Shown: positions 9,583 to 55,876, counted from the first letter of the stretch. The stretch: 64,000 nt of DNA from Seleniivibrio woodruffii (GCF_004339245.1 NZ_SMGG01000007.1:62001-126000), one strand, 5' to 3'. Numbers and translations: made by a program. Notes: a model not told the origin generated them from the letters alone.

Positions 9583-9597
9583 TTTGTTTTTTATCAA

Positions 9598-9623: not shown

Positions 9624-9648
9624 TATAAGTTGTTTTAACAAACTAAAA

Positions 9649-9723: not shown

Positions 9724-9908
9724 GTTTTTTTCTAAGCCTATTCCAGACGCTCTATTTCCTGGCATCAAAGACAAGACAACATACTAATAATAAAGAATAA
9801 TCACGAAAACAACCTAATAAAAACCTTTGTTAACAAAATTGATACTTTCTCTATAATCAGGCAGAATCAGCAGAATAGCTTATATGCAAATTAGTTACAT
9901 CAATGTTC

Positions 9909-11590: not shown

Positions 11591-11617
11591 AAGCAAAGAC
11601 TACATCTCTTATAAATA

Positions 11618-39930: not shown

Positions 39931-40356
39931 CTAATCCTCATCGGGCAGCATAACAGTAAACACAGGATCCGGAGTATCTCCTGGACCTAACACACATTTC
40001 AATCGAATAACTTTTGATTCATCAGCGTCATCACCGCCGGATTCAATCTGCCTTACGGTAACTGAAAACACTATTTCAGACCCGCTCGTGCCCTTTTTAA
40101 TAGCAAAATACAGACACATGAGAACATCCCAGAATCTTCCGGAAATGCTCTGAATCCCAGAATAATTTTCAGGCAAGCCAACAGCCTCAAAATATGCCGT
40201 TCTGGTAAATGCCATAGGATATTTAAAGCCAGCCTGCTTAAGCATAGGTATGTTTTCATTTTCCGGCTTATACTCGGTCATATCAACCAGTATGCCGTCT
40301 TCTATTGCCTGCTTACGTGAATAAGCATACAAGACTTCGCCAAAAATATTATCCAT
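39931..40356 (-). CDS. DUF6573-like element protein
   Basis: A 141-residue protein beginning with FGEVLYAYSRKQAIEDGIL, like the DUF6573 family found on plasmids and conjugative elements. It then has FKYPMAFTRTAYFEAVGLP and a strand-rich C-terminus (IVFSVTVRQIE, VIRLKCVLGPGD). Function unknown. Last gene of the minus-strand maintenance operon, 12 bp after the ArdC-like gene. Confidence 0.65.
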   Translation of the reverse strand: MDNIFGEVLYAYSRKQAIEDGILVDMTEYKPENENIPMLKQAGFKYPMAFTRTAYFEAVGLPENYSGIQSISGRFWDVLMCLYFAIKKGTSGSEIVFSVTVRQIESGGDDADESKVIRLKCVLGPGDTPDPVFTVMLPDED

Positions 40357-40368
40357 ATCGGCACCGCC

Positions 40369-41205
40369 TCAGGACGCTTTTGGCAGCGACATAGCCGCCT
40401 CTAACTGAGCAATAATGCTATTTGCCATGTCATAAGCAACAGTTAAAGCTTCTTTCACCTCAGAGATGTCTCCATCACTCCATCCGGCAAGATACCCGAA
40501 TGAATAGCATGATGAATCCACGCCAAAATGTCCGGACACGATAAATGATGTTATCTCTGCCTCAAGCTCTTTAACGGCTCTGCTTTTTGACTTTTCTTTA
40601 AAGTGATTCAGCTCACCGTGGGCTACCTCATGAATCAAGGTTTTCAGACGTTGCTCTTCGCTCTTGTTGGCGTTAAGAGTGATTGTATTATCACTTGTCA
40701 GAAAACCACCAAGATCCGGTTCCAGAGGCTCGTGTTTCACGCCATATTTGTATCCGAATACACTTATAAACTTGCTCAGAAGTTCCGTTTCGCCGCCAAA
40801 GTCGTGACAAATATCAGCCTCTTCAGGAAGCTCCTTCCCTTCTGTCTGGCTCACGTCATAAACACAGACTGCTCTGAAGCCCTGCAAAAGCTGCACGTGC
40901 CTTTCAGACTCACTTACGGCTTCGCAATCAACTTCTATATCTATGACTTTCTTTATCAGAGGGGCGAATATCATTATTGCCTTTTCACCTTTTTTCACCC
41001 TTCTTCCCAGCTTGTTCCACTGCTTCAGCCCTGCCACCATGGTGGCGTGTCTGCATGCACAGAATATCAAAAGGGAATTCATTGGTGAATACTTGTGAAA
41101 CTTTGAATGGAAAGCCAGAAATTCTGCAAATTTACCATCGGCGATTATTTTCTTTAAACCATCTTCAATAAGAGCAGAAAGCTCCTGTAAACTTTTACTT
41201 TGCAT
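40369..41205 (-). CDS. ardC: ArdC-like antirestriction protein with zinc-peptidase motif
   Basis: A 278-residue protein from ATG 41205 (AAGGAG upstream). The N-terminal half matches the ArdC/DUF1738 ssDNA-binding domain (FHKYSPMNSLLIFCACRHAT, WNKLGRRVKKGEKAI). The C-terminal half has the peptidase signature HEVAHGELNH. ArdC proteins coat incoming single strands and shield them from host restriction. The downstream helix ESKSRAVKELEAEI resembles the third-ligand region. A copy of the switch-like RNA precedes it; its alternative pairing would cover the ribosome site. Confidence 0.85.
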   Translation of the reverse strand: MQSKSLQELSALIEDGLKKIIADGKFAEFLAFHSKFHKYSPMNSLLIFCACRHATMVAGLKQWNKLGRRVKKGEKAIMIFAPLIKKVIDIEVDCEAVSESERHVQLLQGFRAVCVYDVSQTEGKELPEEADICHDFGGETELLSKFISVFGYKYGVKHEPLEPDLGGFLTSDNTITLNANKSEEQRLKTLIHEVAHGELNHFKEKSKSRAVKELEAEITSFIVSGHFGVDSSCYSFGYLAGWSDGDISEVKEALTVAYDMANSIIAQLEAAMSLPKAS

Positions 41206-41223
41206 TGTGTTCTCCTTAAAAAA

Positions 41224-41268
41224 GGGGGGACACAAATCCCAGAGGGGAATTGCATCCCCTCAAGGGTT
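41224..41268 (-). ncRNA. Pseudoknot switch RNA, copy A (before ardC-like)
   Basis: Minus strand: outer CCC/GGG, inner AGGGGA/TCCCCT hairpin with loop TGCAAT, then a 3' arm TTGTGTCC (41228-41235). The arm can pair with the loop (two G.U pairs, the weakest copy) or with ACACAA plus GG at the ribosome site and start of the ArdC gene (six perfect pairs plus CC/GG). The element begins at the stop codon of the upstream gene. Confidence 0.6.
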
Positions 41269-41764
41269 ATTTTTCAAAAACTACTTCTATTGCGTTATCG
41301 ATAACATCCCAGTTAATCCCTATCGTTGCGTCATGTGCTTCCTCGATAAGCTTTGCCACTTTTTTACAGTTTTCAAAGGTGGGTTCAATATCTGCATAGC
41401 CCTCATCAATCCTCATTTTTATATCAGCCAAGGACCAATGAACGTCTATCTCAATATCTTCCCATGCATAACTGAACTGTTTAACGTTTGGCAGTTCATC
41501 CGGTTCCCCTTGAGACTCAAAAACTATCGTAGCAAACGCTCTTATCAATTCTTCACAAGCATCTGTATCAAGAGGCTCTGTCTGAGCCTTGAAAGGGTCT
41601 TTCTCGCTGAACAGTGATATCAACGCCATAACAGCCGTATCAAAGTTCATAAAGATTTTTATCCGTTCATTCAGCTCATCAACTTTTGAATCCAATTCAC
41701 GCACCACAGAGCGAAGGCGTGTTATCTCTCGCATACGTTCTTCAGCTATCTCTTCATATGTCAT
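41267..41764 (-). CDS. Coiled-coil protein of the maintenance operon
   Basis: A 165-residue acidic protein. Residues 1-45 form a heptad-rich coiled coil (ERMREITRLRSVVRELDSKV) and the rest is helical with many Asp/Glu. No family recognised. RNA copy B lies upstream and copy A directly downstream, in step with the spacing of this operon. Confidence 0.5.
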   Translation of the reverse strand: MTYEEIAEERMREITRLRSVVRELDSKVDELNERIKIFMNFDTAVMALISLFSEKDPFKAQTEPLDTDACEELIRAFATIVFESQGEPDELPNVKQFSYAWEDIEIDVHWSLADIKMRIDEGYADIEPTFENCKKVAKLIEEAHDATIGINWDVIDNAIEVVFEK

Positions 41765-41785
41765 TTTGCATCCTCCGCTGGCAGA

Positions 41786-41827
41786 GGAGCATACCCTGAT
41801 AGGGGATATGCATCCCCTGTCAGGATT
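41786..41827 (-). ncRNA. Pseudoknot switch RNA, copy B
   Basis: Minus strand: outer CCTGA/TCAGG, inner AGGGGA/TCCCCT-type hairpin with loop containing GCATA, and 3' arm TATGC followed by TCCTC. GCATA pairs perfectly with TATGC. Alternatively TGC-TCCTCT pairs with GGAGGA-T-GCA over the ribosome site of the gene starting at 41764 (nine pairs, one bulge). Confidence 0.65.
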
Positions 41828-41859
41828 TTTAACTATTGATTACGGGCATCAGAAATCGC

Positions 41860-42081
41860 TTATTTCAGCTTTTCCCAGTACCAGTAATTCTCAACAAACT
41901 TGTTTATCAAGGATAAGCCGGAGCCGCTTGCCAACAAGCGTCCTTTTGTGTCGGTTATCCTTATCCTGCCTCTCTTCATCTCAACCTTAACATTTGTGGG
42001 TTCGCCCCTTAAGTTAAGGATTTCTCCTGTCTCAGATAAGTCTGAGCCGTACTCTTTCAGAACATTTTTGATTGATTCCAT
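41860..42081 (-). CDS. Small protein of the maintenance operon
   Basis: A 73-residue protein starting MESIKNVLKEYG; ATG 42081 has GGAG seven bases upstream and is better than 42099. The end repeats a small-domain look (RGRIRITDTKGRLLASGSGL, VENYWYWEKLK). Function unknown. It follows ssb closely without an RNA element, so it is probably translated with ssb. Confidence 0.5.
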   Translation of the reverse strand: MESIKNVLKEYGSDLSETGEILNLRGEPTNVKVEMKRGRIRITDTKGRLLASGSGLSLINKFVENYWYWEKLK

Positions 42082-42105
42082 ATTGTGCTCCATTCTCATA
42101 AAATA

Positions 42106-42486
42106 TCAGAATGGAATATCATCGGAGTCTTCTTCCGGAGTGTGCGGCGGCATATCATCCGACTGCTTCTTCCATGCAAGCAGCTGGATTGAGTTTGCTA
42201 CAACAAGCACCCTGTAACGGTTTTTGCCTTCTGATTCCCATTTATCCTGTTTGAGCTTGCCCTCTATCAGGACAGGAGAACCCTTTGATACAAAGTTTTT
42301 GACAAACTCGGCTCTATAACCGAATGTTCTGATGTCGAAGAAACTTGTCTCCTCTTTAAGCTCTCCGTTTTTATCTCTGTATTTCTTGGTAACAGCGACA
42401 GAGGCTTCGGCGACAAGAGTTCCGTTTGGCAGTGTACGTATTTCAGGTTCTTTTGTGATGTTTCCTTTCAGGATTACGATGTTCAT
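42106..42486 (-). CDS. ssb: Single-stranded DNA-binding protein (second element copy)
   Basis: A 126-residue OB-fold SSB: VILKGNITKEPEIRTLPNGT, EETSFFDIRTFGYRAEFV, GSPVLIEGKLKQDKWES, ending in the acidic SSB tail with DIPF that recruits replication proteins. It differs clearly from the 14219 copy, which has no such tail. Two SSBs in one element may serve different stages, for example host replication partners versus transfer. RNA copy C precedes it. Confidence 0.9.
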   Translation of the reverse strand: MNIVILKGNITKEPEIRTLPNGTLVAEASVAVTKKYRDKNGELKEETSFFDIRTFGYRAEFVKNFVSKGSPVLIEGKLKQDKWESEGKNRYRVLVVANSIQLLAWKKQSDDMPPHTPEEDSDDIPF

Positions 42487-42517
42487 AATACTCTCCTTAG
42501 ATTTGATATTTTAAGAG

Positions 42518-42557
42518 AGAGCATTCCCCATAAGGGGATATGCCCCCTCATAGGGTT
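42518..42557 (-). ncRNA. Pseudoknot switch RNA, copy C (before ssb)
   Basis: Minus strand: outer CCC/GGG, inner AGGGG/CCCCT with loop GCATAT, and 3' arm AATGCTCTC (42517-42525). GCAT pairs with ATGC. The same arm can pair with GAGAGTATT over the ribosome site and start of ssb (nine pairs, one G.U). Confidence 0.65.
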
Positions 42558-42568
42558 AAAACTTGTTT

Positions 42569-42901
42569 TCAGAGTGTAGTTATTATGTATTCAACAATCA
42601 GATCCCATGATGCCGTCGGATCTGCTTCAGACTCATAGAAATACCTTTCCTGAACAGCCGTGAAATATTCATCTAGAGACTGCTCATCAACAGGCAGTTT
42701 GAGTCTTTCTGCAATTACTCTGACATCATCTCTCGTTAACCTCAGGCAGAAAAACTCAGCAGAGTATTCGCCTTCGTCCATGAGGATTGAGCCTTTTGAA
42801 TACAATATTTTTACTTTTTGCTCTGCCTCGGCAGCAGATTCAGCATCTACGGTAACTTTCAGAACAGATTTTTCAGTGATTATGACGGTGTACTCACTCA
42901 T
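42569..42901 (-). CDS. DpnD/PcfM-like small protein
   Basis: A 110-residue protein starting MSEYTVIITEKSVLKVTVDA, followed by EAEQKVKILYSKGS. This matches the DpnD/PcfM pattern (short strand, then the SxxEA helix) seen on conjugative elements. The upstream frame to 42985 is not needed. It overlaps the preceding gene by 8 bases. The C-terminal half is helical. Function unknown in all members. Confidence 0.6.
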   Translation of the reverse strand: MSEYTVIITEKSVLKVTVDAESAAEAEQKVKILYSKGSILMDEGEYSAEFFCLRLTRDDVRVIAERLKLPVDEQSLDEYFTAVQERYFYESEADPTASWDLIVEYIITTL

Positions 42902-43214
42902 AATAAGCACCATCCTTTTCAGACAGGACAAATTCATTCCCTCTTGCAACAATCTGAGGAAAATCAAAGTCCCAATCCTCTTCATCTATTTCAATGAAGT
43001 CTGCATCACCAAACTGAAGCGGTTTTATAAAGATTACCGTGTTGCAGAAATTCACGAACACACTTTTCTCAATGGTAACAGGTGTGACCCAGTCGCCATC
43101 ATCATCGTGTCTGGTTTCATAAAAGAACAGCTGCCTTCCGGCTAGTTTTTCTATCTGTTCCTTTTCTGCTGATTTGAGTCTGCCGTCATAATAGGCATAA
43201 AGATTATTAAACAT
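42894..43214 (-). CDS. Acidic protein of the maintenance operon
   Basis: A 106-residue protein from ATG 43214 (GGAGG nine bases upstream). Begins FNNLYAYYDGRLKSAEKEQI, then strand-rich with many Asp (DEEDWDFDFPQIV). Unknown family. Its ribosome site is the target of the alternative pairing of RNA copy D. Confidence 0.5.
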   Translation of the reverse strand: MFNNLYAYYDGRLKSAEKEQIEKLAGRQLFFYETRHDDDGDWVTPVTIEKSVFVNFCNTVIFIKPLQFGDADFIEIDEEDWDFDFPQIVARGNEFVLSEKDGAYYE

Positions 43215-43237
43215 GATGTGCCTCCGCATAGATTACC

Positions 43238-43283
43238 GGAAACACTTTTACCCTATCCGGGGTAGTGTCCCCGGCGTTGGGTT
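43238..43283 (-). ncRNA. Pseudoknot switch RNA, copy D
   Basis: Minus strand: outer ACCC/GGGT, inner CCGGGG/CCCCGG with loop ACACTA, and 3' arm AGTGTTTCC. ACACT pairs perfectly with AGTGT. The same arm, as GTGTTTCC, pairs with GGAGGCAC over the ribosome site of the gene at 43214 (eight pairs, two G.U). It starts right at the upstream stop codon. Confidence 0.7.
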
Positions 43284-43673
43284 TTACATAATTTCTGAAA
43301 TACTGATGGTCTCGCTTCTCAGATCCTCTGCATGATACTTCAATGACAGCATCAACTGGAAAGTCGTCCTGCCAACAAGCACGTATCCGCAGCTTGTTTC
43401 TGCATAAGCATCACCGCAGTTGTAGCCGTAATCAAAATCAATCTCTCCAGTGTCCTCATCAACTTTTCCTGACTCAACAGGATGGAAGAAAGAGGCTTCA
43501 AAGAGACCTTTTGATGTTACAAACTCAGCTGTTTCGCATATCTTCAGAATACTTTCTTTGCTGATAACAGTTGAAAAACCATCATCGCAGTCCATGTATT
43601 CCAGATCAGAAAACAGCTTGCCGGTAATTGAAACGCTGCCATCAGCTCTTTTTTCAATAACATAATTTTCCAT
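43284..43673 (-). CDS. Unknown protein of the maintenance operon
   Basis: A 129-residue protein (YVIEKRADGSVSITGKLFSD, DIDFDYGYNCGDAYAETSCG, VGRTTFQLMLSLKYHAEDLR) with mixed strands and a C-terminal helix. No family recognised. It follows the first gene of the operon by 9 bp with no RNA element between them. Confidence 0.5.
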   Translation of the reverse strand: MENYVIEKRADGSVSITGKLFSDLEYMDCDDGFSTVISKESILKICETAEFVTSKGLFEASFFHPVESGKVDEDTGEIDFDYGYNCGDAYAETSCGYVLVGRTTFQLMLSLKYHAEDLRSETISISEIM

Positions 43674-43682
43674 ACGACACCT

Positions 43683-44399
43683 TTAAGCCGATTTCATGTC
43701 GGATTTCTTTGAAGCAGGGTACATGTTGTTGATGTAATTGCCACCCTTCGGAGAGGCATAATAGTACACCGAAACATATTCCCCTTTTTTCAATCTGACA
43801 TTATCGTCCACAACGGACTTATCAGTTCTGTTAAACCACTCGGAACCGATACGGATTGCCTTATCAGCATTTACCGCAGCGATATAGCCTGTGATTTTCA
43901 GATTATGCTCATAAGTCTTTACATCAACAGCAGCAGGCACAACATTATCAGTTACTGTCTGTTTAAAGCTATTAATGTACTTTCTGCCTTTCGTTGTCAC
44001 ATAGACAACGGCATCAACTGTCATTCCTATTTCAGGTTCAATATCCATAACGGTATGTTTTGAGAAAAGATATTCCTCTCCGTTAAGGCTGAGACTGTTT
44101 TCGGAAATGGCAGTAATGTCGGCGGCAAAAAGCTCTTTCAGTGGATTTTCGGCACTAACACCGGCGAGATTTACTCGGTTCAGATAGAGCGAGTTTTTAT
44201 TAGGGCTCAGATAAGCATAAAGGTCTACCTTCATCCCTTTTGAAAACTTCTCAAATCCGACTCTGACAGTCTTTTCCGATGTGACAAAGGTGTAGCCGTT
44301 GATAACAACACCCTTAAAAGTCAGGGTATCGACAACAGCATTTTCAAGATTAACATAGATTGCATTGGAAACAGTTTGATCGTTTGACTTGTCTTGCAT
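43683..44399 (-). CDS. Protein with three OB-like repeats, first gene of the maintenance operon
   Basis: A 238-residue protein made of about three similar strand-rich units, each with a residue pattern like KGMKVDLYAYLSPNKNSLYL, IGMTVDAVVYVTTKGRKYIN and KGEYVSVYYYASPKGGNYIN. The pattern of a short G-turn, an alternating strand, then NSxYLN/KYIN recurs at residues 52-75, 121-143 and 205-228. This suggests OB- or S1-like folds that bind nucleic acid. RNA copy E precedes it, with alternative pairing that includes its start codon. Confidence 0.55.
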   Translation of the reverse strand: MQDKSNDQTVSNAIYVNLENAVVDTLTFKGVVINGYTFVTSEKTVRVGFEKFSKGMKVDLYAYLSPNKNSLYLNRVNLAGVSAENPLKELFAADITAISENSLSLNGEEYLFSKHTVMDIEPEIGMTVDAVVYVTTKGRKYINSFKQTVTDNVVPAAVDVKTYEHNLKITGYIAAVNADKAIRIGSEWFNRTDKSVVDDNVRLKKGEYVSVYYYASPKGGNYINNMYPASKKSDMKSA

Positions 44400-44440
44400 A
44401 GCGTTCTCCTTCGTTTGAAATATTTATTTCCGAACGTAGG

Positions 44441-44486
44441 CACACTATGCTCCCTCTAACGGGGTAGTATGCCCCGTGGGGATTTT
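44441..44486 (-). ncRNA. Pseudoknot switch RNA, copy E (operon leader)
   Basis: Minus strand: outer TCCC/GGGA, inner ACGGGG/CCCCGT with loop CATACTA, and 3' arm GCATAGTGTG. CATACTA pairs with TAGTGTG (seven pairs, one G.U). The same arm, as GCATAGTGT, pairs with ACGCTATGC, which contains the ATG of the gene at 44399 (nine pairs, one G.U). This copy is in the leader of the first gene, so it does not depend on an upstream gene. Confidence 0.7.
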
Positions 44487-44524: not shown

Positions 44525-44580
44525 TGACCGGTGGTGTCCCGGTTTGACCGCTGGTGTTGCGGGTCATCATGAAATGATGA
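44525..44580. repeat. 20-bp tandem repeat and inverted repeat in the operon promoter region
   Basis: TGACCGGTGGTGT at 44525 and TGACCGCTGGTGT at 44545 are spaced 20 bp apart, each followed by a C/G-rich end. A TCATCAT-GAA-ATGATGA inverted repeat follows (44564-44580). It lies upstream of the maintenance operon and downstream of the convergent-free end of the defence island, so it may be the operator or an oriT-like site. The rest of 44487-44635 is AT-rich with nothing definite. Confidence 0.5.
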
Positions 44581-44635: not shown

Positions 44636-45430
44636 TCAATTGTTAGTTTTAACGCAATTGTCTAATTTCCTATGTAGCAAAGAAATCAGCGTTAAATAGT
44701 CTGCCGCATCATCATCTCCAGACCACAGAATCTTTGGCTCATGAGCCAGAGGATTTCTGATCGCTGCGAAACACCCTTTCAACAACATAGCAAATCCTTT
44801 ATGCTCAGATTTTTCAGTTTCGGTCTGTAAAGTATTTAAAGCAAGAATTGGCTTGTCTATTGCAAATACAGCCTCAACCAAAGCCGCTCCATCAAGCTCA
44901 AGACCAGACATCACTCTTAATCTTTGAGCTAATCCTTTTGCAGCTTCAAAAACTGCATGAAAATAATTTTCCTGCATAAGCTCCTGATTACAATATTTAA
45001 TCAGCTCAGGATGCATGCTCCTGTCTTTGAATTTTGCACGAATTGTCTGGACTCTCCGTTCTGCTTCTTCCAAAGTAGAGGCTTTATCGCAGGTTTTAAT
45101 TTTACCATCTTTACCCAATTCAAAACCTGCAAATATAAGTATTCTGTTCAAAGCCTCCCTTTTCTCTTCAAATTCACCACTGCGTCCTATATATCTAGCA
45201 GGATTGAAAAATGCCTGTAGAAAATCTAATATTTTATTGGAGCATTTATACTGTCTCTGAGAATCAGAAAATACCCAATATAGCCTTTTCCATTTTGTAG
45301 ATTCCCCAGATTGATCTTTTATGCCACGATCATCTAAAAGTCTTGTGATTTCGCTACCACTTCCGCACTCTCCCAAAAACTTTGCCAGTGTTTCGATTTG
45401 ACCATTTGACATTACAGGCAATGCACTCAT
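44636..45430 (-). CDS. TIGR02391/Ymh-type defence-associated protein
   Basis: A 264-residue protein. The C-terminal half has the TIGR02391 (Ymh) core: ENYFHAVFEAAKGLAQRLR, then RNPLAHEP with a conserved His-Glu, then DYLTLISLLHRKLD. An N-terminal 100 residues contains a WxxLYxVF-type segment. Such proteins are frequent beside restriction or abortive-infection genes, and the RNxxAHE motif is shared with HEPN-like nucleases. It overlaps res by 4 bases and ends the island. Confidence 0.75.
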   Translation of the reverse strand: MSALPVMSNGQIETLAKFLGECGSGSEITRLLDDRGIKDQSGESTKWKRLYWVFSDSQRQYKCSNKILDFLQAFFNPARYIGRSGEFEEKREALNRILIFAGFELGKDGKIKTCDKASTLEEAERRVQTIRAKFKDRSMHPELIKYCNQELMQENYFHAVFEAAKGLAQRLRVMSGLELDGAALVEAVFAIDKPILALNTLQTETEKSEHKGFAMLLKGCFAAIRNPLAHEPKILWSGDDDAADYLTLISLLHRKLDNCVKTNN

Positions 45431-48400
45431 ACATATTTACCTGTGAAATCTTCATAAGAAGTGGCAACTGTGAAAGCGACATCGGTTTCGAGAGCCTTGA
45501 AATGTTCTTTCCCGCAGTTTATCTTTGCGTTTTCTTTTGCTCTTCTTTCTTCAGACATGTGGGTGTCTTTTGTTTCAACAACAAAGTATAGTTTTTCTTT
45601 TCCATCTGCTTCAACAAGAACAGCCCAGTCTGGGTTATATCCGCCAAGTGGTGTTGGAATTTTAAACCAGCTAGGCAATTTTGTATAAAGCTTAATATCA
45701 GCACTTTTTTCAAATTGCTCAGCAAACTTAAGTTCAACATCTGAATCATATACAACGTACTCATGAATTGACTTTGCAACACTCAACATATTCTTGTGCA
45801 GATATCCAAAGAGTTGCATATCATCTTTTTCAAAAAGCTCTTGAGCATAAAATTCAGTATCTCCAATTTTCTGGTATTTAACTCCATTCACCTGCATCAG
45901 CTGCATTTTAGTATTAATAATGTTTGCAACCTGCTCAATGTATTTTTGAGGATTTCTTTTGAATGCGTCCAGTCGATCACTTTCAGCAATAATCTGAACA
46001 ATAGTCTTTCTCGTAAGGTTAGTAGTATTTTGCAGATATGTTATTAAATCAGGTAGTTCAAACGCTGTCGATTCATAACTGCTGGCACTTTCATGTGGTG
46101 TTCCGACATGAACGCCGCCTCTGTCAATTTCTGCAACTGCTTTTCTATAGATAAATCTTGCTTTACCAACATTAAGGTTATTTTTAATCTCTTGGACACA
46201 GTCTTCGACAAGCCTATCAACGTCAAAATTAACTCTGTATGTCGTCTTAAACTTGATTTTATCCCAGAGAATCTTAAACTCTTCGCTCATAAATACTGCT
46301 TTATTAAGAACTATGTGTTTTTTGTCATCTCTATTGTTGATATTCAGTTTTCCTGCAACTTTCTTGAGAATGTTCTCGATCTGGGCTCTTTGCGGTTCGT
46401 ATTTTGCAGAAAGTTTCATATCACCATTCTTAAGTGCAGCTTTCAGGCTATCCTGAACCTTCCCTTTAACATCAACATAGGCATTTTCCTTCAGCTCTTT
46501 AAAAAGCATTTTGGATGCCTCTGAGCCAAGGTATTCTATTTCTTCATCTTCAATAGACACTGCTATGCCTGCAAAAAGATGATCCTCTACAACACCAAAC
46601 TTAATACCTTCTTCTCTCTCAATTTCGTTTTGAAGCCCTTCTGCAAACTTCTCATAAGACTCATTTGCCATAACAGTGAGGGTATTCACCTCAAAGCCAT
46701 GAACTCTCTCACCATCCTGGTTAACTGCGATACGAAGTCCCCTGCCTATTTCCTGTCTTTTTTTGATTTCTGAGTTGGTTTCGTTCAGAGTGCAAATCTG
46801 GAATACGTTTGGATTGTCCCAACCTTCTTTAAGAGCAGAGTGAGAAAAGATGAATTTCAGCTTTGAGCTGAAACTCAAGAGTTTTTCTTTATCCTTCATA
46901 ATAAGATTGTACGCACTCTCATCAAAAGCAGATGTTGCAGGCTTATCATCATTTGTATATTTAGATTCCTTAAACATATCTTCGCCTTTTGTATCTTTCT
47001 TCTTATCTATGGCGAAATAACCGTTATGAACTTCTGCGGCAACAACTTCAGGAGTTTTTCCATCTAGCAGAGTTTGATATTGGGGTTTTCTGACAGCTCT
47101 GACAAATTCTTCCTCAAACATTACCGCAAACTTGCCTTTCTGCGGATTTCCGTCAGCATCATAAGAACGGTAGTTTGATACTTTATCAATAAAGAACAAA
47201 CTTAAAACCTTTATTTGCTTCTCTTTCAGCCTTAATTCTTTGTCCAAATGCTCTTCAATGGTTTTTCTTATCTGAAGTCTTTTATATTCATCGGGATCAA
47301 CCTCACCAACTGCCTGTCCTATTCTGATAATATCCGGCTTGCTAGTAAAGCTGATATATTCCTCACCTTTTTTACAGTATATAGTTTCAATGATGTAGCC
47401 TTCATAAATATCACGCCCATTGCTGTATTTGTTTTCCAGCAGGTCTGAATTTTCCTGAACGGTAACAACCTTTCGCTCTATACTTCCATCCTTTTTACGT
47501 GCATCTATTTCAACTTTCGCTGTAATTGGACTCTTCTTATTATCAACGCTCACCAATTTGATATACGCCTTGTTGTGTCCGTCAATAACATCTATTCCGG
47601 CGACTTCAATTTGTTTGACCAACTTTTGTTCATAGGCATCTACAGAGTCCAGCTTATAAAGCATATGGTGTTTGTCAACATGAGTGGCTGAATACCTGAG
47701 CGTACATAAAGGATTCAAAGAAGCAATAGCCTCTTTGCTCTTATCTGTTCTGTCTACACTTTGTGGCTCATCAACAATTACAATAGGATTTGTGTCCTTT
47801 ATAAATTCAATAGGTTTTGCACCATCCATTCGGTCATGTGCCCTATGGATAATATTTGCTTTATTTTCTTTCTCAGGGTCTGCAAAACTCTTTCTGAAAG
47901 CATCAATATTGATAACCATGATTTGGATATCAGGACTTGTTGCAAAGTCTCTGACTTCAGGCAGACGGTTTGAGTCATATATAAAGTAATTAAAGGGAAC
48001 ATTCTCATAAAGCTCTTTGAAATGAGTTTCTGTCATCTGAAGCGATTTATAGACTCCTTCTTTCACAGCTATCGAAGGAACAACGATAATGAACTTTGTG
48101 AAGCCATATTTGCTGTTCAGCTCAAAAATTGTGCGAAGATATACATATGTTTTCCCAGTCCCTGTTTCCATCTCAACTGTAAAGTTGAATGAGTCCAGCT
48201 TTTCTGAAGGTGCGAGTCCATTTTTCAGCTGAATTTTGCGGACATTTCTCAGGATATCATCATCCAACAATTTAAGGCGGTTACCGATACCAAGATTACT
48301 TTCAGTAACAGGGGCGACATTTGCAGCGGTATATGTCAGCGGAGCAACAGTGAAGTTGGTCTGACACATCTCCTGTCCTTCAAAAATATCGACAATAGAA

Positions 48401-48450
48401 TCTATCGCCTGCCTCTGATAATCAAGATGCGGATCAAACTGTATTTTCAT
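45427..48450 (-). CDS. res: Type III restriction enzyme Res subunit
   Basis: A 1007-residue DEAD-like helicase-nuclease. Walker A is ETGTGKTYVYL (about 93-103), motif II DEPQ, motif III YSATH, motif VI QEIGRGLRIAVN, and the C-terminal PD-(D/E)XK nuclease PDWAVLVEADG...FVVETKD. This is the EcoP-type Res order and length. It travels with Mod at 1-bp spacing. It cuts after translocating between two unmethylated sites in opposite orientation. Confidence 0.95.
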   Translation of the reverse strand: MKIQFDPHLDYQRQAIDSIVDIFEGQEMCQTNFTVAPLTYTAANVAPVTESNLGIGNRLKLLDDDILRNVRKIQLKNGLAPSEKLDSFNFTVEMETGTGKTYVYLRTIFELNSKYGFTKFIIVVPSIAVKEGVYKSLQMTETHFKELYENVPFNYFIYDSNRLPEVRDFATSPDIQIMVINIDAFRKSFADPEKENKANIIHRAHDRMDGAKPIEFIKDTNPIVIVDEPQSVDRTDKSKEAIASLNPLCTLRYSATHVDKHHMLYKLDSVDAYEQKLVKQIEVAGIDVIDGHNKAYIKLVSVDNKKSPITAKVEIDARKKDGSIERKVVTVQENSDLLENKYSNGRDIYEGYIIETIYCKKGEEYISFTSKPDIIRIGQAVGEVDPDEYKRLQIRKTIEEHLDKELRLKEKQIKVLSLFFIDKVSNYRSYDADGNPQKGKFAVMFEEEFVRAVRKPQYQTLLDGKTPEVVAAEVHNGYFAIDKKKDTKGEDMFKESKYTNDDKPATSAFDESAYNLIMKDKEKLLSFSSKLKFIFSHSALKEGWDNPNVFQICTLNETNSEIKKRQEIGRGLRIAVNQDGERVHGFEVNTLTVMANESYEKFAEGLQNEIEREEGIKFGVVEDHLFAGIAVSIEDEEIEYLGSEASKMLFKELKENAYVDVKGKVQDSLKAALKNGDMKLSAKYEPQRAQIENILKKVAGKLNINNRDDKKHIVLNKAVFMSEEFKILWDKIKFKTTYRVNFDVDRLVEDCVQEIKNNLNVGKARFIYRKAVAEIDRGGVHVGTPHESASSYESTAFELPDLITYLQNTTNLTRKTIVQIIAESDRLDAFKRNPQKYIEQVANIINTKMQLMQVNGVKYQKIGDTEFYAQELFEKDDMQLFGYLHKNMLSVAKSIHEYVVYDSDVELKFAEQFEKSADIKLYTKLPSWFKIPTPLGGYNPDWAVLVEADGKEKLYFVVETKDTHMSEERRAKENAKINCGKEHFKALETDVAFTVATSYEDFTGKYV

Positions 48451-48451
48451 G

Positions 48452-50305
48452 TTACAGGCTCCTCACATCTTCAATACCGGCATCTTTTAAGATATGGATA
48501 ATATTTGCTTTTACAACATTGGCATCCAACTCTTTGTCGCCAAATCCTGAGTCTTTTAAAACTACTCGCATGATCTCTGGTTTGAGTTGTTCTTTTAGTG
48601 AAACGATGCCTTCTGCTACATTGATAGTAATATTATCAGACAGGCACACCATGAGTGCCCCCATACCGATATCATAGACTTTCTGTCCATCTATCATGTG
48701 CTCAGTGATTGGAAGAGTAAGGTCAAGTCCAAATTTAAGTAACACTTCATAAAGGATGTCGTGCTCATTACGGTCATCTTTGATGTTAGAGATATAGTCT
48801 TCCAGCTCTCGCTGAGTCAGATCAAAATCTACTTCCCACGGCTTTATATTGGTTGAATCGAGTTTAAATACCTTGAAGCCAAGGTCACCAGCATAATTTT
48901 CAATAGATGTTCTTAGCTTGTAGCTCACGCCATTAAGACGCCTTTTCCCGATATCAACAATTGATTTAAACCCTGCAGCGAACGCTTCGGAATCCTGGTT
49001 AATAAGTTCAGGAATTTGAACTAATAGAACCTTTCTATTTGAGGACTGTTCAGCATTTAATTCAAAAACAGCCTGCGCTGTAGTACATGACCCTGCAAAG
49101 AAATCGACTATGAGATCATCTTCATCTGAAAATGTGGCGGTCAGATATTTGAGTAATAGAACAGGTTTTACTGTATCTAAGCCATGCTTATTACCAACAA
49201 TTTCGTTTAGGTCTGATTTACCTGTTTCTGCCGTCCCAGTGAGTTCAGGCTCCATAAAGCAATAAATCGGATACAACGGATCTTGCTCTTCGTGCTCATA
49301 TTTCTTTTCTTGGGGAACACCATCATCATTAAGCAAGATTCGATTATTTTGGAATAAGTTATCTATTGTTTGTTTGCCAGCTTTCCATCGGAAGTCCTCG
49401 TCAGGCTGATACCCACCTGATGCAAATCGCATAGTTTCCCTTCGAAATGTCCCGCGATTAGACGTCAGAATTGTAGTTGTTCTATATTTGCCGTCGGCAT
49501 CTTCATGCGGATATGTTCTTGTTTTTGCAGGAACAACATTAAACTTCAACTCATCTCCAGCGCGTCTACCATATACTAAAATGTATTCGGCTACTTTTTG
49601 CGGCCGGAACTTAGCATCACCGGCATTGGTTGGTTTAGCACGCGACTTCCAAGTAAAAATAGCAACGCGATTTTCTTCACCAAAAATTTCATTCATTATA
49701 GACGTTAAGTTTGAAAGCTCTGCATCTCCAATAGAAACAAGGATCACTCCGTCATCATGAAGCATATTTCTGGCAAGTTTTAAGCGCGGGTACATCATAT
49801 TTAGCCAGTTAGTATGATAGCGACCATTCGTTTCTGGGTTGTTTGAAATATTATGCCCCTCACCATCTACCTGACCAGTTATTTTCTTATAATTTTTGAT
49901 ATTATCTTTAAAGTCATCCTTATAAACAAAATCCTTTCCAGTGTTGTATGGTGGATCAATATAGATCATTTTCACTTTTCTGTAATAGCTTTTCTGAAGG
50001 AGTTTCAAAACTTCAAGGTTATCTCCTTCTATGAATATGTTTTTAGTGTTTTCCCAGTCCAATGATTCTTCTGGACATGGACGTATAGTTCCCGTGCTTG
50101 GGGTTTGTGCAATAAGCTTTGCCTGTCTCTTACCATTCCAGTTAAAGCTGTAACGTTCTTCTCTGTCATCTATAAAATCGCCAAGTTCTTCTTTCAGCTT
50201 GTCACAATCCAGCTTCCCTTCTGTAAAAACTTCCGGAAAAATTTCCTTCAGCTTATTTATATTTTCCTGCACTATATCTAATGTCTTTCCGTCCATTTTA
50301 TCCAT
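48452..50305 (-). CDS. mod: Type III DNA methyltransferase Mod subunit
   Basis: A 617-residue N6-adenine methyltransferase (start ATG 50305 with AAGGA upstream; the frame allows 50314). Motif IV is YIDPPYNTGKDF, followed by a long target-recognition segment, then motif I DFFAGSCTTAQAVFEL, the beta-class order of type III Mod. It provides both methylation and site recognition for Res. It is inside a larger gene set with a helicase and three accessory proteins upstream. Confidence 0.95.
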   Translation of the reverse strand: MDKMDGKTLDIVQENINKLKEIFPEVFTEGKLDCDKLKEELGDFIDDREERYSFNWNGKRQAKLIAQTPSTGTIRPCPEESLDWENTKNIFIEGDNLEVLKLLQKSYYRKVKMIYIDPPYNTGKDFVYKDDFKDNIKNYKKITGQVDGEGHNISNNPETNGRYHTNWLNMMYPRLKLARNMLHDDGVILVSIGDAELSNLTSIMNEIFGEENRVAIFTWKSRAKPTNAGDAKFRPQKVAEYILVYGRRAGDELKFNVVPAKTRTYPHEDADGKYRTTTILTSNRGTFRRETMRFASGGYQPDEDFRWKAGKQTIDNLFQNNRILLNDDGVPQEKKYEHEEQDPLYPIYCFMEPELTGTAETGKSDLNEIVGNKHGLDTVKPVLLLKYLTATFSDEDDLIVDFFAGSCTTAQAVFELNAEQSSNRKVLLVQIPELINQDSEAFAAGFKSIVDIGKRRLNGVSYKLRTSIENYAGDLGFKVFKLDSTNIKPWEVDFDLTQRELEDYISNIKDDRNEHDILYEVLLKFGLDLTLPITEHMIDGQKVYDIGMGALMVCLSDNITINVAEGIVSLKEQLKPEIMRVVLKDSGFGDKELDANVVKANIIHILKDAGIEDVRSL

Positions 50306-50331
50306 AATATACATCCTTATTATTTTTTAGT

Positions 50332-50928
50332 TTAAGCCTTAGATTGTTTCTCCCAGTGGTCAATAATATCTTGAATGTTTGAGTTAATTGATTTTAATGC
50401 TTTCAAAATTGCATAGAATGTCACAAAAAAATACGAAAATGCAAATGTACTAATCAATTGAATTTCTATAGCTTTGAAACAACCAACTTGCTGATAAAAC
50501 GTCTTATCTCCAATCATTTCGTAAAGATATAAATTATTAAAACCTTTTGGCATCGTTTGAAAAAAGGAAAAAAGAAAGAAAATAACTACAGCCACAAGGC
50601 TAAATAATGTAATTTTTGCAAGGTCAGAATCAAGCGTCTTTAGGGGATCATAAAGTTCTTTTTTATATGCTCCTTCTTCTTGTGCCTGTTTTACATGCTG
50701 TTGGTATGCGGGGTTACCATAAATGACCTCATGAAGCTTAAAAGTAATAAATGTTCTGGCTGTAAAAAGAAAACCTACAAGCGCAAGGAAACCTGAGAAA
50801 ATTGTATCAATAGATATTTTTGTGTTTACAAATAACCCCATCGGCGTTGCCATAAAGAGAATGACAAATATAATAACAAAAATTTTGATATGAGGAATTA
50901 TTTGAAATGATTGTATTGTCTTATTCAT
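50332..50928 (-). CDS. Four-helix membrane protein of the restriction island
   Basis: A 198-residue protein with helices at about 13-32, 40-62, 105-125 and 150-172, and a charged loop (QQHVKQAQEEGAYKKEL). It lies 1 bp from the 315-residue gene and 17 bp from mod. Together the pair resembles, in size and layout only, the Kiwa-type pair of a four-helix KwaA and a ~315-residue KwaB, but I see no sequence signature that proves it. Confidence 0.5.
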   Translation of the reverse strand: MNKTIQSFQIIPHIKIFVIIFVILFMATPMGLFVNTKISIDTIFSGFLALVGFLFTARTFITFKLHEVIYGNPAYQQHVKQAQEEGAYKKELYDPLKTLDSDLAKITLFSLVAVVIFFLFSFFQTMPKGFNNLYLYEMIGDKTFYQQVGCFKAIEIQLISTFAFSYFFVTFYAILKALKSINSNIQDIIDHWEKQSKA

Positions 50929-50929
50929 T

Positions 50930-51877
50930 TTAGTTAGCCGGTTTAAAAACTATTTTTTCATCCATCTGTTTTATCATCTCTTTCACCAAATTATGAGACA
51001 ATAGATTTTCAGTGTCAAATGTTCCCAAATCATCATAATCAAAACCAAGATAATCATCCATTGTATCAGTGAAATTTATGGTAATCTCTTGGTCATCATT
51101 AGTAGTGCCAACTACTGATCCAGAATACACTGTTTTACCCGATTTAAGTCCACGGGCTGTTTTGTTGCGTAAGCTTTTAATCCAGTTAAAAATAGCATTA
51201 TCTGATTGGCCTTCTAATCTAAAAACCTGATGTACCGATTTTAGATTATTAGAAAGTGATGAATTCTCCTTGTCTGCCCCTTCTAATTCATACGTCGTAG
51301 CCCGTACTTCTGATATAGTCTGTAGCTTCCCTATTAAGTCTTCAAACTCCCCAGGAGTGAAAAGTGGACCATAGTTCTTTATACCTCTAATAGTAAATCG
51401 TTTGTTGACGTCTTCTGTTGTGCTAGATTGATCAGCCTCTGCTTTCTTTTGCTTTACAAACTCAAGATAAGTACTCCACAGTTCGCTTAAGAATAGATTA
51501 AAGGCATAAGAGCTCATATAGTGAGAATAGATTCCTTTCATACTGTCTTTTCGAACACAGAAAAAATTAATTTCCACAGGAGGATTTCCATCTACAGGTT
51601 TTGCTTCGATAGTAACTTTTCCATTTTCGTCTTTTTTGACAAAATGATGAAATATATTTGTCTTCGAGGAAATAATCAGACCAGCAATATGTTTATCATT
51701 GTCATTTAGATATAATCTTCTGGTAAATGGCGGATTTTTTTCGAGTTTATAATAAGGCCAGTCACGATCAATATTATCGATATTTTTAAGCCAATCAAAA
51801 AATTTAAGTATACTAACTGATTTTTCCTGTAGCCCTGTATTAAAATAAAATGACGAACCTTTTATTGTTACAGACAT
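50930..51877 (-). CDS. Soluble protein of the restriction island
   Basis: A 315-residue protein with no signal peptide or membrane helix: SSFYFNTGLQEKSVSILKFF, EINFFCVRKDSMKGIYSHYM, and a C-terminal part rich in Asp (DTMDDYLGFDYDDLG). I do not recognise the family. It pairs with the four-helix membrane protein downstream. In a defence setting a soluble sensor with a membrane partner is common. Its presence between DUF4391 and mod is unusual for a type III restriction locus. Confidence 0.5.
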   Translation of the reverse strand: MSVTIKGSSFYFNTGLQEKSVSILKFFDWLKNIDNIDRDWPYYKLEKNPPFTRRLYLNDNDKHIAGLIISSKTNIFHHFVKKDENGKVTIEAKPVDGNPPVEINFFCVRKDSMKGIYSHYMSSYAFNLFLSELWSTYLEFVKQKKAEADQSSTTEDVNKRFTIRGIKNYGPLFTPGEFEDLIGKLQTISEVRATTYELEGADKENSSLSNNLKSVHQVFRLEGQSDNAIFNWIKSLRNKTARGLKSGKTVYSGSVVGTTNDDQEITINFTDTMDDYLGFDYDDLGTFDTENLLSHNLVKEMIKQMDEKIVFKPAN

Positions 51878-51903
51878 GATGAACTCCTAAAGTGACTTAT
51901 TTA

Positions 51904-52656
51904 TTATATATTTTGAGCAAGCTTTTTAAGTTCTTGTTCAAACTTCTTGATTTTTGTATTGAGCTCCACCTGCCGGTTGAAATCTGCGCCTTTGATCTGT
52001 GATCTCAGCTCAGCAATTTTTTGTTCAATCTCTCTTGTCCTATCTAACATTTCTGAACGACTGTTTCTGTCGCCCAGTTTAAATTCTCCGTTGAGTTTAC
52101 CACATTCATAACCGATAAAACAATCCTGCCATGAGCAGTAAAGCGTATAAAAGTTATGCAGTTTTTGCTTATCCAAGCTTAATGAATCAATGAATGCTTT
52201 TTCAAAGTCCATCAGAGTTGATTTTTTAATCCATTCAGTAGTATAAAACTGCTCCGAAACATAAGCTCCTTTTTCTGCCTGACTGAAGCGTTTATGAGCA
52301 AAACTCAGAGCTATGTTGTCATTATTATCGCTGAACCCAAGTAATAAAGGATATGGAATCATCCTGTGTATTATCTCTGCAATCCTTTTATAACCTTTTG
52401 GTTTGACCAGCTCAACTTCTAATATCGCAATTTCAAGATATTCTCTAACATCATCTTTGTATGGCATTATGGTACAAGTTGAAGTCTTAAGCGTATATGC
52501 CCAATAGATATTCTTAACATTATCTTTTATAAGTTTTTTATCTGCCGCAGTGAGACTGTCACTCTCCAAAAAGAGTTTCTTTGCGACTCTACTTCCCAAA
52601 ATTGTACTATCTGGGAATGATATTTTATCCCATACCGTTTTTAACACCTCAACCAT
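51904..52656 (-). CDS. DUF4391-like protein
   Basis: A 250-residue protein from ATG 52656 (AAGGA eight bases upstream). It shows the DUF4391 pattern: FPDSTILGSRVAKKLFLE, KDNVKNIYWAYTLKTSTCTI, MIPYPLLLG and FSQAEKGAYVSEQFYTTEWI, with a C-terminal coiled coil. DUF4391 genes often accompany a large helicase next to Mod/Res genes. Overlaps the helicase gene stop, so they are co-translated. Confidence 0.7.
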   Translation of the reverse strand: MVEVLKTVWDKISFPDSTILGSRVAKKLFLESDSLTAADKKLIKDNVKNIYWAYTLKTSTCTIMPYKDDVREYLEIAILEVELVKPKGYKRIAEIIHRMIPYPLLLGFSDNNDNIALSFAHKRFSQAEKGAYVSEQFYTTEWIKKSTLMDFEKAFIDSLSLDKQKLHNFYTLYCSWQDCFIGYECGKLNGEFKLGDRNSRSEMLDRTREIEQKIAELRSQIKGADFNRQVELNTKIKKFEQELKKLAQNI

Positions 52657-52660
52657 CTTT

Positions 52661-55600
52661 TCAGTCCTTCTTACCAAGAAGGATCAGAAAACTAACAACC
52701 TCGAAATCATCTATTCCTTTGAAGCTATTTTTGCTCATTACAGTTCCTCCGGGAGAAAACAGACTCTCAACTCCCTTTTCCTCCGCTGCACCAGTCAATG
52801 CCTGAATAGCTTTGCCAAGCAGATTTTGATAATGACTCATATCATTACCGTTCTTTGTCTTTTTGTTGAGCCTGTCTATTGCATTTTCAGATATTGATTT
52901 GCCAGAATTAGCCGTTTTCTTAAGAATATCCAGAATTTTTTTAACCTGTGTAAACTGAAGCACTACACTGCCTTCATCTGATACATAAACAAGATAATAA
53001 GGCGATAATGCATAAGTTGAATCAGAAACCGCATGACTGCCTTCATTTTTTAAACAAAAAATTACACCTGGTAATAGTTCGTTGTTGTCAGCAGATAGTT
53101 CGACAACAGAATAAGCCCCGTAAGGCATCTTTGAGAGCAAATCTTCATGTTCTTTGAAATAATCGCCTAAGTCCATGCGGAAATCATTCAGAGTGAGATC
53201 TGTAATTGATATCCCACCTTCAATGTCTTCGATATCAACGACCTCATCCTGTAGTCTTTCGAGCTGTTTTCTTCTATACTCAAGATCGTTCATCTTTCCA
53301 GAGTCAGAAAACTCAATGACGTTTTCTTCACCTGTTGCAGAAATATCCAGAAGCACCATACGTCCAGAGACACGTGCTTCCAGATTGATATACTCATCAA
53401 GCTCCATATTTGGCCAGAAGTTTACAAGCTGAATTCTATCGTTTTTTGAACCAAGCCTGTCTACTCGCCCGAACCTCTGAATAATTCTTACAGGGTTCCA
53501 ATGTATGTCATAGTTTATCAGGTAATCACAATCCTGCAGGTTCTGTCCTTCTGAAATACAATCTGTGGCTATCAACAGATCAATCTCATCTGTCAAATTT
53601 GAATCTATTTTTGATCTTTCTTTTGAAACTGGTGAAAATGATGTAAGTATTGATGCTAAATCTTTTCTGATTCCCGGCATCTCTGTTTTGTTGTCTCCTG
53701 TGCCTGTAACAAGAGCAGAGTATATTCCAAGCTCTTTAAAAGCCCACTTTGACAGGTTTTCATAAAGATACTTTGCGGTATCAGCAAAAGCGGTAAAAAT
53801 AATAACTTTTTTGTTTCCTGCGTTAATAGGATTGTTGACTTTATTTTGGATAAGCTGCTTTATTTGTCGCAATTTCTCATCTTCTGGGGACTTTATACCC
53901 TGAGCTGGTTGTATGAGATTTTTCAGAATCTCTTTATCTTCTTCAAGTTCCTGAGACCACCGAATCAGATCCATATCCTTAATCAGCACCTTAACCTTTT
54001 TGCCGACAACGAAAGGGGCAAATTCATAGTCATCGACCTCTATGTCTTCTATATCCAGCTCTTCAATGGAATCATTTGCGTCATGCTCTTGAATCTTTTT
54101 AAGCAGGTCTTCAACTTCTTCTAAAAGCTTTTCGAGCGTCATTGAAAAAGAGTGAATTGAACTCTCCATCCTTTTGAAAAGGTTAACTCGCATCAAATGG
54201 ATCAAACTCTGCTCTCGGTCAACTTGCCTGAAAACTGAGCCGCCAGCAACTTCCTTGTCATATTTCCTGCTGTACTCTTCAACCTTTTGCGGCAAAACAT
54301 ATTTTAATGGTGCATATGCACTGAGATTCAGCAGCCTGATGTCTCGATTTATTTTATCCAGTGAAGGGAATTTTTCATGTATGTCGATACCAGTCTTTAT
54401 GTTTAAAGGCTTTAACCTTTCAGGAAACTTTCCAACTTCTGAAGTATCATAATATTTTTCAATGTGCTTTCTTGAACGTGCAATAGTTAATAAATCCAAT
54501 AACTTAAAGTAATCAAAATTGAGTCTTTCAAGAAGTGTCGCCGTAGTTCTATCCTGACTCTCAAGTTTGAGCCATGCATTGAAACGAGTCTGAGCCATCT
54601 TAAGAGTATGCTCTATACTTCCTATACCGTTATCTTTTAGAGCTTCGTCATTGCCTTCTACAATAAATGCTACCTGATTTTTTAAATCATTCATTCTGTT
54701 ATTTACCGGCGTTGCAGACAACATCAATACCTTTGTTTTCACCCCGGCCTTTATTATCTCATTCATAAGTTTAGAATAACGTGTAACACTATAATCTTTT
54801 CTTGTCGGACTGTTTCTGAAATTATGAGATTCATCAATCACAACTAAGTCATAATTGCCCCAGTTGAGAGTGTTTAGATTGATTTCACCTGAATAGCCAT
54901 GAGAACGAGTCAGGTCGGTATGATTTAAAACATCATAATTAAATCTATCAGATGCAAAAATATTACGTTTATCGTTAACAGTATATAACGTCCAGTTTTC
55001 ACGAAGCTTTTTGGGACACAGGACAAGCACTCTATCATTGCGAAGTTCATAATATTTGATGATAGCAAGAGCTTCAAATGTTTTACCCAAACCGACACTA
55101 TCTGCAATAATGCAACCGTTGAATCTTTCAATTTTTGATATTGCACCAAGAACACCATCTCTTTGGAACTTATACAGCTTCTGCCATATACGAGTGCTTT
55201 TTATACCTGTCTGTGTTTTGATAATTTTGTCTTCGTCAAGATCAGACACTAGATCTTTAAATATGTTATATAAAGTTAAAAAATATATTTCTTTTGCAGA
55301 CTTCTCTGAAAAAAATAATCGCAGATAATGAAGTATATTTTGCTTAATTTCTCCAGATTTATTACTCGCATCCCAAAGACTATCAAACCAGTTCTGTAAA
55401 GAATCTACTTTGTCGTTGTCACTGAAACAAGTGTTCATATGATGATCTGATGAAGCAGATACTCCAAGTCCCGCTGTGGAAAATGGTGAACTGCCCATTA
55501 TGCAACTATTTAAAGCCTCTCTACTCCCTACTAAGAACATATTCTGATTAATTAACGAATTCTGCTCTCGAATCTTGCATTTGTTTTCAAGCCACTCGTA

Positions 55601-55876
55601 AAATTCTTGAGCCACCCTTTTGGTAGCAAGTTTATTTCTTAAATACCGATCTTCTATTCCTCCACACATCTCGCTATAAAATGACTCCTGAGCAGTATCA
55701 TATAATAAAATATGGGTATCACTCATCTTTTGAAGATATCTCTTTAACTCTTGAAAAGCAAAGATTGACAATTTGTTAGAAATAATTTTTATTTGCCCAT
55801 TATCTTCTAAATGAAGTTTAAGCTCATCTATAACTTTACCAAAATTCCTATTATCCAGAATCTTAACTGCATCCAT
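52661..55876 (-). CDS. SNF2-type helicase with N-terminal PLD-like domain
   Basis: A 1071-residue protein. The N-terminal 140 residues resemble a phospholipase D-like domain without a clear HKD. The SNF2/RapA-type helicase follows: SVGLGKTFEAL (Walker A, about 258-268), DESHNFRNS (II), LSATPVNNRMNDLKNQ (III), DCISEGQNLQDCDYLIN (V) and QRFGRVDRLGSK (VI). It is the first gene of the defence island and sets the transcript for DUF4391, the two unknowns, mod, res and the Ymh gene. Confidence 0.85.
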   Translation of the reverse strand: MDAVKILDNRNFGKVIDELKLHLEDNGQIKIISNKLSIFAFQELKRYLQKMSDTHILLYDTAQESFYSEMCGGIEDRYLRNKLATKRVAQEFYEWLENKCKIREQNSLINQNMFLVGSREALNSCIMGSSPFSTAGLGVSASSDHHMNTCFSDNDKVDSLQNWFDSLWDASNKSGEIKQNILHYLRLFFSEKSAKEIYFLTLYNIFKDLVSDLDEDKIIKTQTGIKSTRIWQKLYKFQRDGVLGAISKIERFNGCIIADSVGLGKTFEALAIIKYYELRNDRVLVLCPKKLRENWTLYTVNDKRNIFASDRFNYDVLNHTDLTRSHGYSGEINLNTLNWGNYDLVVIDESHNFRNSPTRKDYSVTRYSKLMNEIIKAGVKTKVLMLSATPVNNRMNDLKNQVAFIVEGNDEALKDNGIGSIEHTLKMAQTRFNAWLKLESQDRTTATLLERLNFDYFKLLDLLTIARSRKHIEKYYDTSEVGKFPERLKPLNIKTGIDIHEKFPSLDKINRDIRLLNLSAYAPLKYVLPQKVEEYSRKYDKEVAGGSVFRQVDREQSLIHLMRVNLFKRMESSIHSFSMTLEKLLEEVEDLLKKIQEHDANDSIEELDIEDIEVDDYEFAPFVVGKKVKVLIKDMDLIRWSQELEEDKEILKNLIQPAQGIKSPEDEKLRQIKQLIQNKVNNPINAGNKKVIIFTAFADTAKYLYENLSKWAFKELGIYSALVTGTGDNKTEMPGIRKDLASILTSFSPVSKERSKIDSNLTDEIDLLIATDCISEGQNLQDCDYLINYDIHWNPVRIIQRFGRVDRLGSKNDRIQLVNFWPNMELDEYINLEARVSGRMVLLDISATGEENVIEFSDSGKMNDLEYRRKQLERLQDEVVDIEDIEGGISITDLTLNDFRMDLGDYFKEHEDLLSKMPYGAYSVVELSADNNELLPGVIFCLKNEGSHAVSDSTYALSPYYLVYVSDEGSVVLQFTQVKKILDILKKTANSGKSISENAIDRLNKKTKNGNDMSHYQNLLGKAIQALTGAAEEKGVESLFSPGGTVMSKNSFKGIDDFEVVSFLILLGKKD

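Follow-up and report, generated by a model that had tools for sequence, protein, structure and literature searches.

Repeated leader elements whose arm can pair with a hairpin loop or with the ribosome site precede the uncoupled starts of a Seleniivibrio woodruffii operon and may act as translational operators

In the SAM-II, SAM-V, SAM/SAH and preQ1 classes of riboswitch, a ligand-stabilised pseudoknot usually takes up the Shine-Dalgarno sequence. Translation of repZ in ColIb-P9 (IncIalpha) requires a pseudoknot located 5' of the ribosome site (PMC8383071), T4 gp32 represses via a pseudoknot of ~28 nucleotides (nt) and a downstream part of >40 nt (PMC535899), and hairpins in single-stranded DNA (ssDNA) drive the leading-region ssb genes of the F plasmid (PMC9849209). 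Herein, we describe an element that recurs five times on the minus strand of a 64,000-nt stretch of Seleniivibrio woodruffii (GCF_004339245.1, NZ_SMGG01000007.1:62001-126000; the window), each time ahead of a gene of the same operon, and in which one arm is complementary both to a hairpin loop and to the ribosome-binding site (RBS) of the following gene. Pseudoknot translational switches are a known kind; an RBS-competing loop repeated before each translation unit is a variant for which we could place no precedent.

The IncIalpha repZ leader is alike in lying on a conjugative replicon, in providing an example of translational activation by a pseudoknot, and in its loop-to-distal-arm complementarity before the RBS, which is also present here. 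Unlike the five copies of this operon, repZ is a single copy that serves replication control and responds to an antisense RNA. As the loops differ between the present copies, no single antisense RNA should fit them all. Moreover, the distances from the upstream stop codon to the element (0, 2, 13, 24 and 35 nt) do not suggest ribosome coupling, and a common ribosome-coupling model was set aside on account of this variation.

The original prediction had placed the elements before the genes starting at 44399, 43214, 42486, 41764 and 41205, and all five (c1 to c5) were located there. Each fold spans ~45 bases and reads, from 5' to 3', CCC (CCT in c4), a short variable stretch, the GGGG inner strand, a loop of 6-8 bases, CCCC, a further short variable stretch, GGG (AGG in c4), 0-5 bases, the arm, and finally the Shine-Dalgarno sequence with the start codon, which lies 30-52 nt past the outer stem. 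As had been predicted, the outer stem, the GGGG/CCCC hairpin and the 3' arm recurred in 5/5 copies; the outer stem is CCC/GGG except in c4, where it is CCTGA/TCAGG.

The pairings of the arm were followed copy by copy (minus strand throughout). In c1, the stems (44451..44482; outer TCCC/GGGA, inner CGGGG-CATACTA-CCCCG) precede the arm GCATAGTGTG (44441..44450), which pairs through TAGTGTG with the loop CATACTA and through GCATAGTGT with ACGCTATGC, a segment spanning the start codon; the ribosome site and start of gene 44399 read AGGAGAACGCTATGC (44396..44410). In c2, stems at 43250..43282 (outer ACCC/GGGT, inner CCGGGG-ACACTA-CCCCGG) are followed by the arm AGTGTTTCCG (43237..43246), with AGTGT facing the loop segment ACACT and GTGTTTCCG facing CGGAGGCAC, ahead of the ribosome site and start of the LPD28 gene 43214 (43212..43226). 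Copy c3 has stems at 42527..42555 (outer CCC/GGG, inner AGGGG-GCATAT-CCCCT) and the arm AATGCTCTCT (42516..42525), of which ATGC matches GCAT in the loop and the entire length matches GGAGAGTATT; the ribosome site and start of the single-strand-binding protein (SSB) gene 42486 occupy 42484..42496. The stems of c4 (41795..41825; outer CCTGA/TCAGG, inner AGGGGA-TGCATA-TCCCCT) lead to the arm TATGCTCCTC (41784..41793), where TATGC pairs with GCATA in the loop and TGC-TCCTC pairs with GAGGA-t-GCA across a one-base bulge, the ribosome site and start of gene 41764 lying at 41762..41776. Finally, c5 (stems 41238..41267; outer CCC/GGG, inner AGGGGA-TGCAAT-TCCCCT) carries the arm TTTGTGT (41230..41236), which pairs through TTGTGT with ACACAA and only weakly, through TTGTG and with two wobble pairs, with TGCAA in the loop; the ribosome site and start of the ArdC-like gene 41205 lie at 41203..41216. 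The loop and arm pairs of c1 to c4 agree with those originally listed (none was listed for c5), and the predicted second pairing of the arm, with the ribosome site or start region, was recovered in all five copies. Because the two pairings share part of the arm (in c4, by way of the bulged extension), its two partners are mutually exclusive.

Further homologues with compensatory changes, to which the original prediction had looked, were found in a second element. Denitrovibrio acetiphilus, which belongs to the same bacterial family as the host (genome of 2.9 Mb), has an ArdC relative of 48% identity inside an operon of the same type, and its TraN is 51% identical. Two copies were found in its leaders by eye and with a descriptor: d1, before the first gene of the operon (ACCCTGTGCAGGGCATTTTCTAACCCTGCAGCGGGACAGAAATATGCC...GGAGGTATATTATG), and d2, before the ArdC gene (ACCCAGACGGGGACACTACACCCGTCATGGGCTATCAGTGTGCC...GGAGGCACACAATG). 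Both lie at uncoupled starts, and the remaining genes of that operon are closely spaced and free of elements. Relative to the first-gene and ardC copies of the window, the loop, the arm and the ribosome site are all altered, and both pairings are kept.

Homologous copies were sought with the custom descriptor on fetched loci. The covariance model that had been proposed as a check was built, though from c4 and c5 only, and it recovered c3 to c5 and nothing more. Strong ArdC relatives occurred in just two other genomes among 51 of the phylum. ArdC alignment over genome contigs gave a single further locus, in Denitrovibrio sp. BM701, whose ArdC leader lacks the element. Among viral contigs and plasmids, only distant ArdC, DUF6573 or LPD28 relatives were found, none with the element, and the first-gene, 129-amino-acid and TraN proteins had no close relatives there. 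As a side observation, the match to the TraN-like gene of D. acetiphilus (L059; G007:C1:603640-605877) contains one TGA.

A descriptor that required the inner stem, the outer stem, the loop-arm pairing and the arm-RBS pairing together found the five copies and nothing else in the window, whereas dinucleotide shuffles (n=200) gave a mean of 0.01 per window. With the threshold unchanged, 548 kb of real sequence from elsewhere yielded six scattered matches, none in an array of uncoupled starts. Pairing scores were then summed over the seven copies (c1 to c5, d1 and d2). The arm-RBS score was 135 against 80.7 +/- 6.3 in shuffles (maximum 108; z 8.6) and exceeded all 2000 of them; the loop-arm score was 84 against 48.3 +/- 8.0 in arm shuffles (maximum 71; z 4.5), again above all 2000, and shuffling the loops instead repeated this result (52.7 +/- 7.1, maximum 76). 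A copy's own partner was better than the partner of another copy (permutation p of 0.0002 for arm-RBS and 0.011 for loop-arm). An arm-RBS score of at least 19, found in 1.9% of windows at background genes, was reached by 6/7 copies. Taken singly, the copies are weaker, with p values of 0.0035 to 0.21 for loop-arm and 0.001 to 0.21 for arm-RBS, the weakest being d1 and c5. The arm-to-ribosome-site pairing is the strongest signal, and the loop-arm pairing is weaker yet beyond every shuffle.

The main rival explanation turns on this difference. The copies could be simple hairpins that sequester the RBS until ribosomes, temperature or an RNA chaperone open them; the stabilising stem-loop beside them would be unrelated, and the loop-arm match would have no function. 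The far greater strength of the arm-RBS pairing agrees with this, as does a loop-arm p value above 0.05 in four of the seven copies. However, none of 2000 shuffles, whether of arms or of loops, reaches the summed loop-arm score, the loop-arm pairing has survived in d1 and d2 despite their divergence, and the conserved double stem keeps a fixed position immediately 5' of the arm. We regard plain hairpins as a possible but rather doubtful account.

The double stem was compared over the seven copies (loop of 6-10 nt). Across nine stem pairs, 98.4% of the cells were paired against 83.5% in shuffles, and two-sided changes occurred at four stem pairs. The stem covariation score was 0.413 versus 0.119 in shuffles, of which 0/500 scored as high, and it fell to 0.04-0.08 when the partner was shifted by one column; the rows were cut to the stems by hand, so that the alignment presupposes them, and seven copies are too few for R-scape-type statistics.

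The energies of the two states were calculated with a model that treats neither pseudoknots nor proteins. The minimum-energy fold pairs the Shine-Dalgarno sequence in 7/7 leaders, with c5 favouring a rearranged hairpin. Opening the RBS was calculated to cost 5.2-13.9 kcal/mol, and 3.9-8.9 or 0.6-6.1 kcal/mol when the loop-pairing segment or the whole arm, respectively, was held. Shuffling the arm lowered the opening cost in c1 to c4 and d1 (0-3 of 60 shuffles were as high), the outcome being less clear for c5 and d2. The loop-arm duplex is worth -2.4 to -6.2 kcal/mol with the pseudoknot penalty excluded, and holding the loop-pairing segment costs 3.7-11.5 kcal/mol. Since the calculated energies favour the arm:RBS pairing, a pseudoknotted ON state would not be the ground state.

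Geometry also bears on how the two states might alternate. As the gap between outer stem and arm is just 0-5 bases, the loop at the far end of the double stem can hardly reach the arm, and the pseudoknot and a fully stacked double stem probably cannot coexist. With the outer stem open, the strand crossing the inner stem measures 7-11 bases, for an inner stem of 5-6 base pairs and a loop-arm helix of 4-7 base pairs. A crossing strand of this length is normal H-type pseudoknot geometry. We infer, short of proof, that the OFF state would combine the outer stem with the arm:RBS hairpin, and that the competing state would combine the inner stem with the pseudoknot. From the original proposal of a translational switch, a covarying cis element placed for translational control, with an arm that has two mutually exclusive partners, is upheld, but the statement that it is on when the pseudoknot holds the arm finds no backing in energies that favour arm:RBS. 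Its two-state anatomy stands; the ON/OFF sign and the trigger are proposals, and the switch as a whole is partly supported.

Copies c1 to c5 precede starts that are all well separated from the upstream gene. The element-free starts at 43673, 42904 and 40356 lie about a dozen bases or less past the upstream stop codon, or overlap it, and the 79-amino-acid frame close behind ssb likewise has no element. Placement at the uncoupled starts fits one operator per translation unit. A DNA-level role, as transfer hairpins in ssDNA or as single-strand promoters such as Frpo, was weighed against RNA control. The F plasmid likewise uses hairpins to control ssb and further genes that are switched on early in the recipient (PMC9849209), but Frpo is an ssDNA promoter that does not act at each gene's ribosome site, and promoters of this type would need no copy per gene within an operon. 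The copies here have a single orientation, always stand 30-52 nt ahead of the start codon and are complementary to the ribosome site of their own gene; we consider a DNA-level element very unlikely.

The original prediction recognised no published family, and this agrees with our searches: none of the 4227 families of Rfam 15 matched the window at the gathering threshold, a relaxed Rfam search of both loci gave chance-level matches only (the best, freshwater-2, at 23.3 bits against a threshold of 49.9), and literature searches found no description of such an element. The suggestion that a ligand might set the switch gained no support, as no conserved unpaired nucleotides suggest a small-molecule pocket. 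The SAM-II, SAM-V, SAM/SAH and preQ1 riboswitches resemble the element in having a short leader pseudoknot beside the Shine-Dalgarno sequence, and in the parts of the literature consulted, pseudoknot riboswitches of similar size, such as SAM-V and SAM/SAH, control translation. Here, however, the loop would compete the Shine-Dalgarno sequence free, the internal loops and linkers of the seven copies share no unpaired bases that could form a conserved core, no Rfam riboswitch model matches, and the operon is not metabolic. A small-molecule riboswitch is the most improbable of the explanations considered. Two other candidates were dropped, a CsrA site since the loops have no GGA and a G-quadruplex since each element has just two long G runs.

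The proposed element-controlled operon (39931..44399, minus strand) encodes a DUF5666-like protein, an unknown protein, LPD28, a DpnD/PcfM-like protein, SSB, unknown proteins of 79 and 165 amino acids, an anti-restriction ArdC-like protein, in which both a metallopeptidase domain and the ArdC N-terminal domain were recognised, and DUF6573. Because the operon sits amid F-type transfer genes (TraN-like) and defence genes, it appears from gene content to be part of an integrated conjugative-type element. The first-gene protein (43683-44399, minus strand) has a weak DUF5666 match and a repeated motif with a KGxxYIN end, which is also present at the C terminus of the D. acetiphilus first-gene protein.

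Several side observations were made in these regions. A second, different SSB gene of the same element (14219-14557, plus strand) has its ribosome site in a predicted hairpin and carries no copy. The c5 leader alone (41215-41262, minus strand) can refold to GGGGATGCAA...TTGTGTCCCC and then CCTTTTTT, giving a terminator-like hairpin ahead of the ArdC gene; a search for an intrinsic-terminator stem with a U tract on the coding strand found none at c1 to c4 and this possible one at c5 only. In both operons, small hairpins with the loop RACACCA and differing stems (CCGC/GCGG, ACCGG/CCGGT, TCGG/CCGA) lie immediately 5' of the first copy (window 44525-44570, minus strand; D. acetiphilus locus L042 8735-8755, minus strand). 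About four more cluster 35 kb off on the contig of the window, close to a group II intron (L075 15360-15465, that is G000:C7:141360-141465); they are possibly operator, origin or RNA sites. Dense defence cargo at 5163-11596 and 44636-55876 includes type I/II-like methylase and specificity genes, AbiEi/AbiEii, type III restriction-modification with a PD-Lambda-3_B-like gene, and an HKD+Snf2 helicase.

The operon's SSB and its protein with an ArdC N-terminal domain also bring to mind an autogenous repressor site like that of T4 gene 32, where a 5' pseudoknot lies ahead of the RBS of an SSB gene (PMC535899). The pseudoknot would then nucleate a single-strand-binding protein, and the bound state would be OFF, the opposite sign to that originally proposed and to that favoured here. 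In T4, however, the downstream part is unstructured and has UUAAA repeats, whereas here the Shine-Dalgarno sequence is in a predicted hairpin in 7/7 copies, this hairpin vies for the arm as well, and elements of this kind also stand before genes other than ssb. With the RBS already in a predicted hairpin, a repressor would be superfluous, and we judge such a site unlikely.

The reading we favour, with confidence evenly balanced, is a default-OFF, operon-wide cis translational operator, one per translation unit and bistable, that opens briefly while it is being transcribed or through the action of a factor. Each element would act in the predicted 5' leader of one translation unit, with the arm:RBS hairpin as the calculated stabler state. 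The loop would compete for the arm, and an H-type pseudoknot could form once the CCC/GGG outer stem opens or kinks. This state might raise translation early, as the loop and arm are transcribed ahead of the RBS, or whenever a factor stabilises it. With an operator before every uncoupled start, a single signal could govern how the entire operon is translated. The likeliest candidate factor would be a single-strand-binding protein of the same operon (SSB, the ArdC-like protein or the first-gene product), which would give feedback on the proteins that handle incoming ssDNA.

Several points weigh against the favoured operator. In c5 and d1, the loop and the arm pair weakly. With the loop-pairing segment held, the calculated RBS opening cost falls by just 1.2-5.8 kcal/mol and the Shine-Dalgarno sequence is rarely freed, because the 3' half of the arm or other strands pair with it, and given this small drop the pseudoknot alone may not switch translation on. 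The single-strand-binding protein is a conjectural opening factor, and the fold prediction of the first-gene protein reached a pLDDT of 30, so that no OB fold is claimed for it. The leaders are predicted from sequence as transcribed units, and in the sequence examined the RNA is carried by only two elements of one bacterial family.

If the favoured operator is true, an unclassified structured RNA would recur at each start in one operon where translation begins independently. Tentatively, and with less confidence than in the operator itself, the copies may represent a new RNA class of conjugative elements, a multi-copy, operon-wide bistable operator of translation in which a hairpin loop mimics the RBS and competes for one arm, and through which a single element-encoded signal, perhaps ssDNA status, would switch all establishment proteins together. 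The seven short copies, in which compensatory changes have arisen naturally, lend themselves at once to work on the mechanism. SSB and anti-restriction genes are needed at once by an incoming conjugative element in a new cell, and recipients express ssb early, from ssDNA promoters (PMC9849209), which indicates that control over the timing of such genes could matter. The shared RNA operator would then add a post-transcriptional level to establishment timing, one separate from the ssDNA promoters already known.

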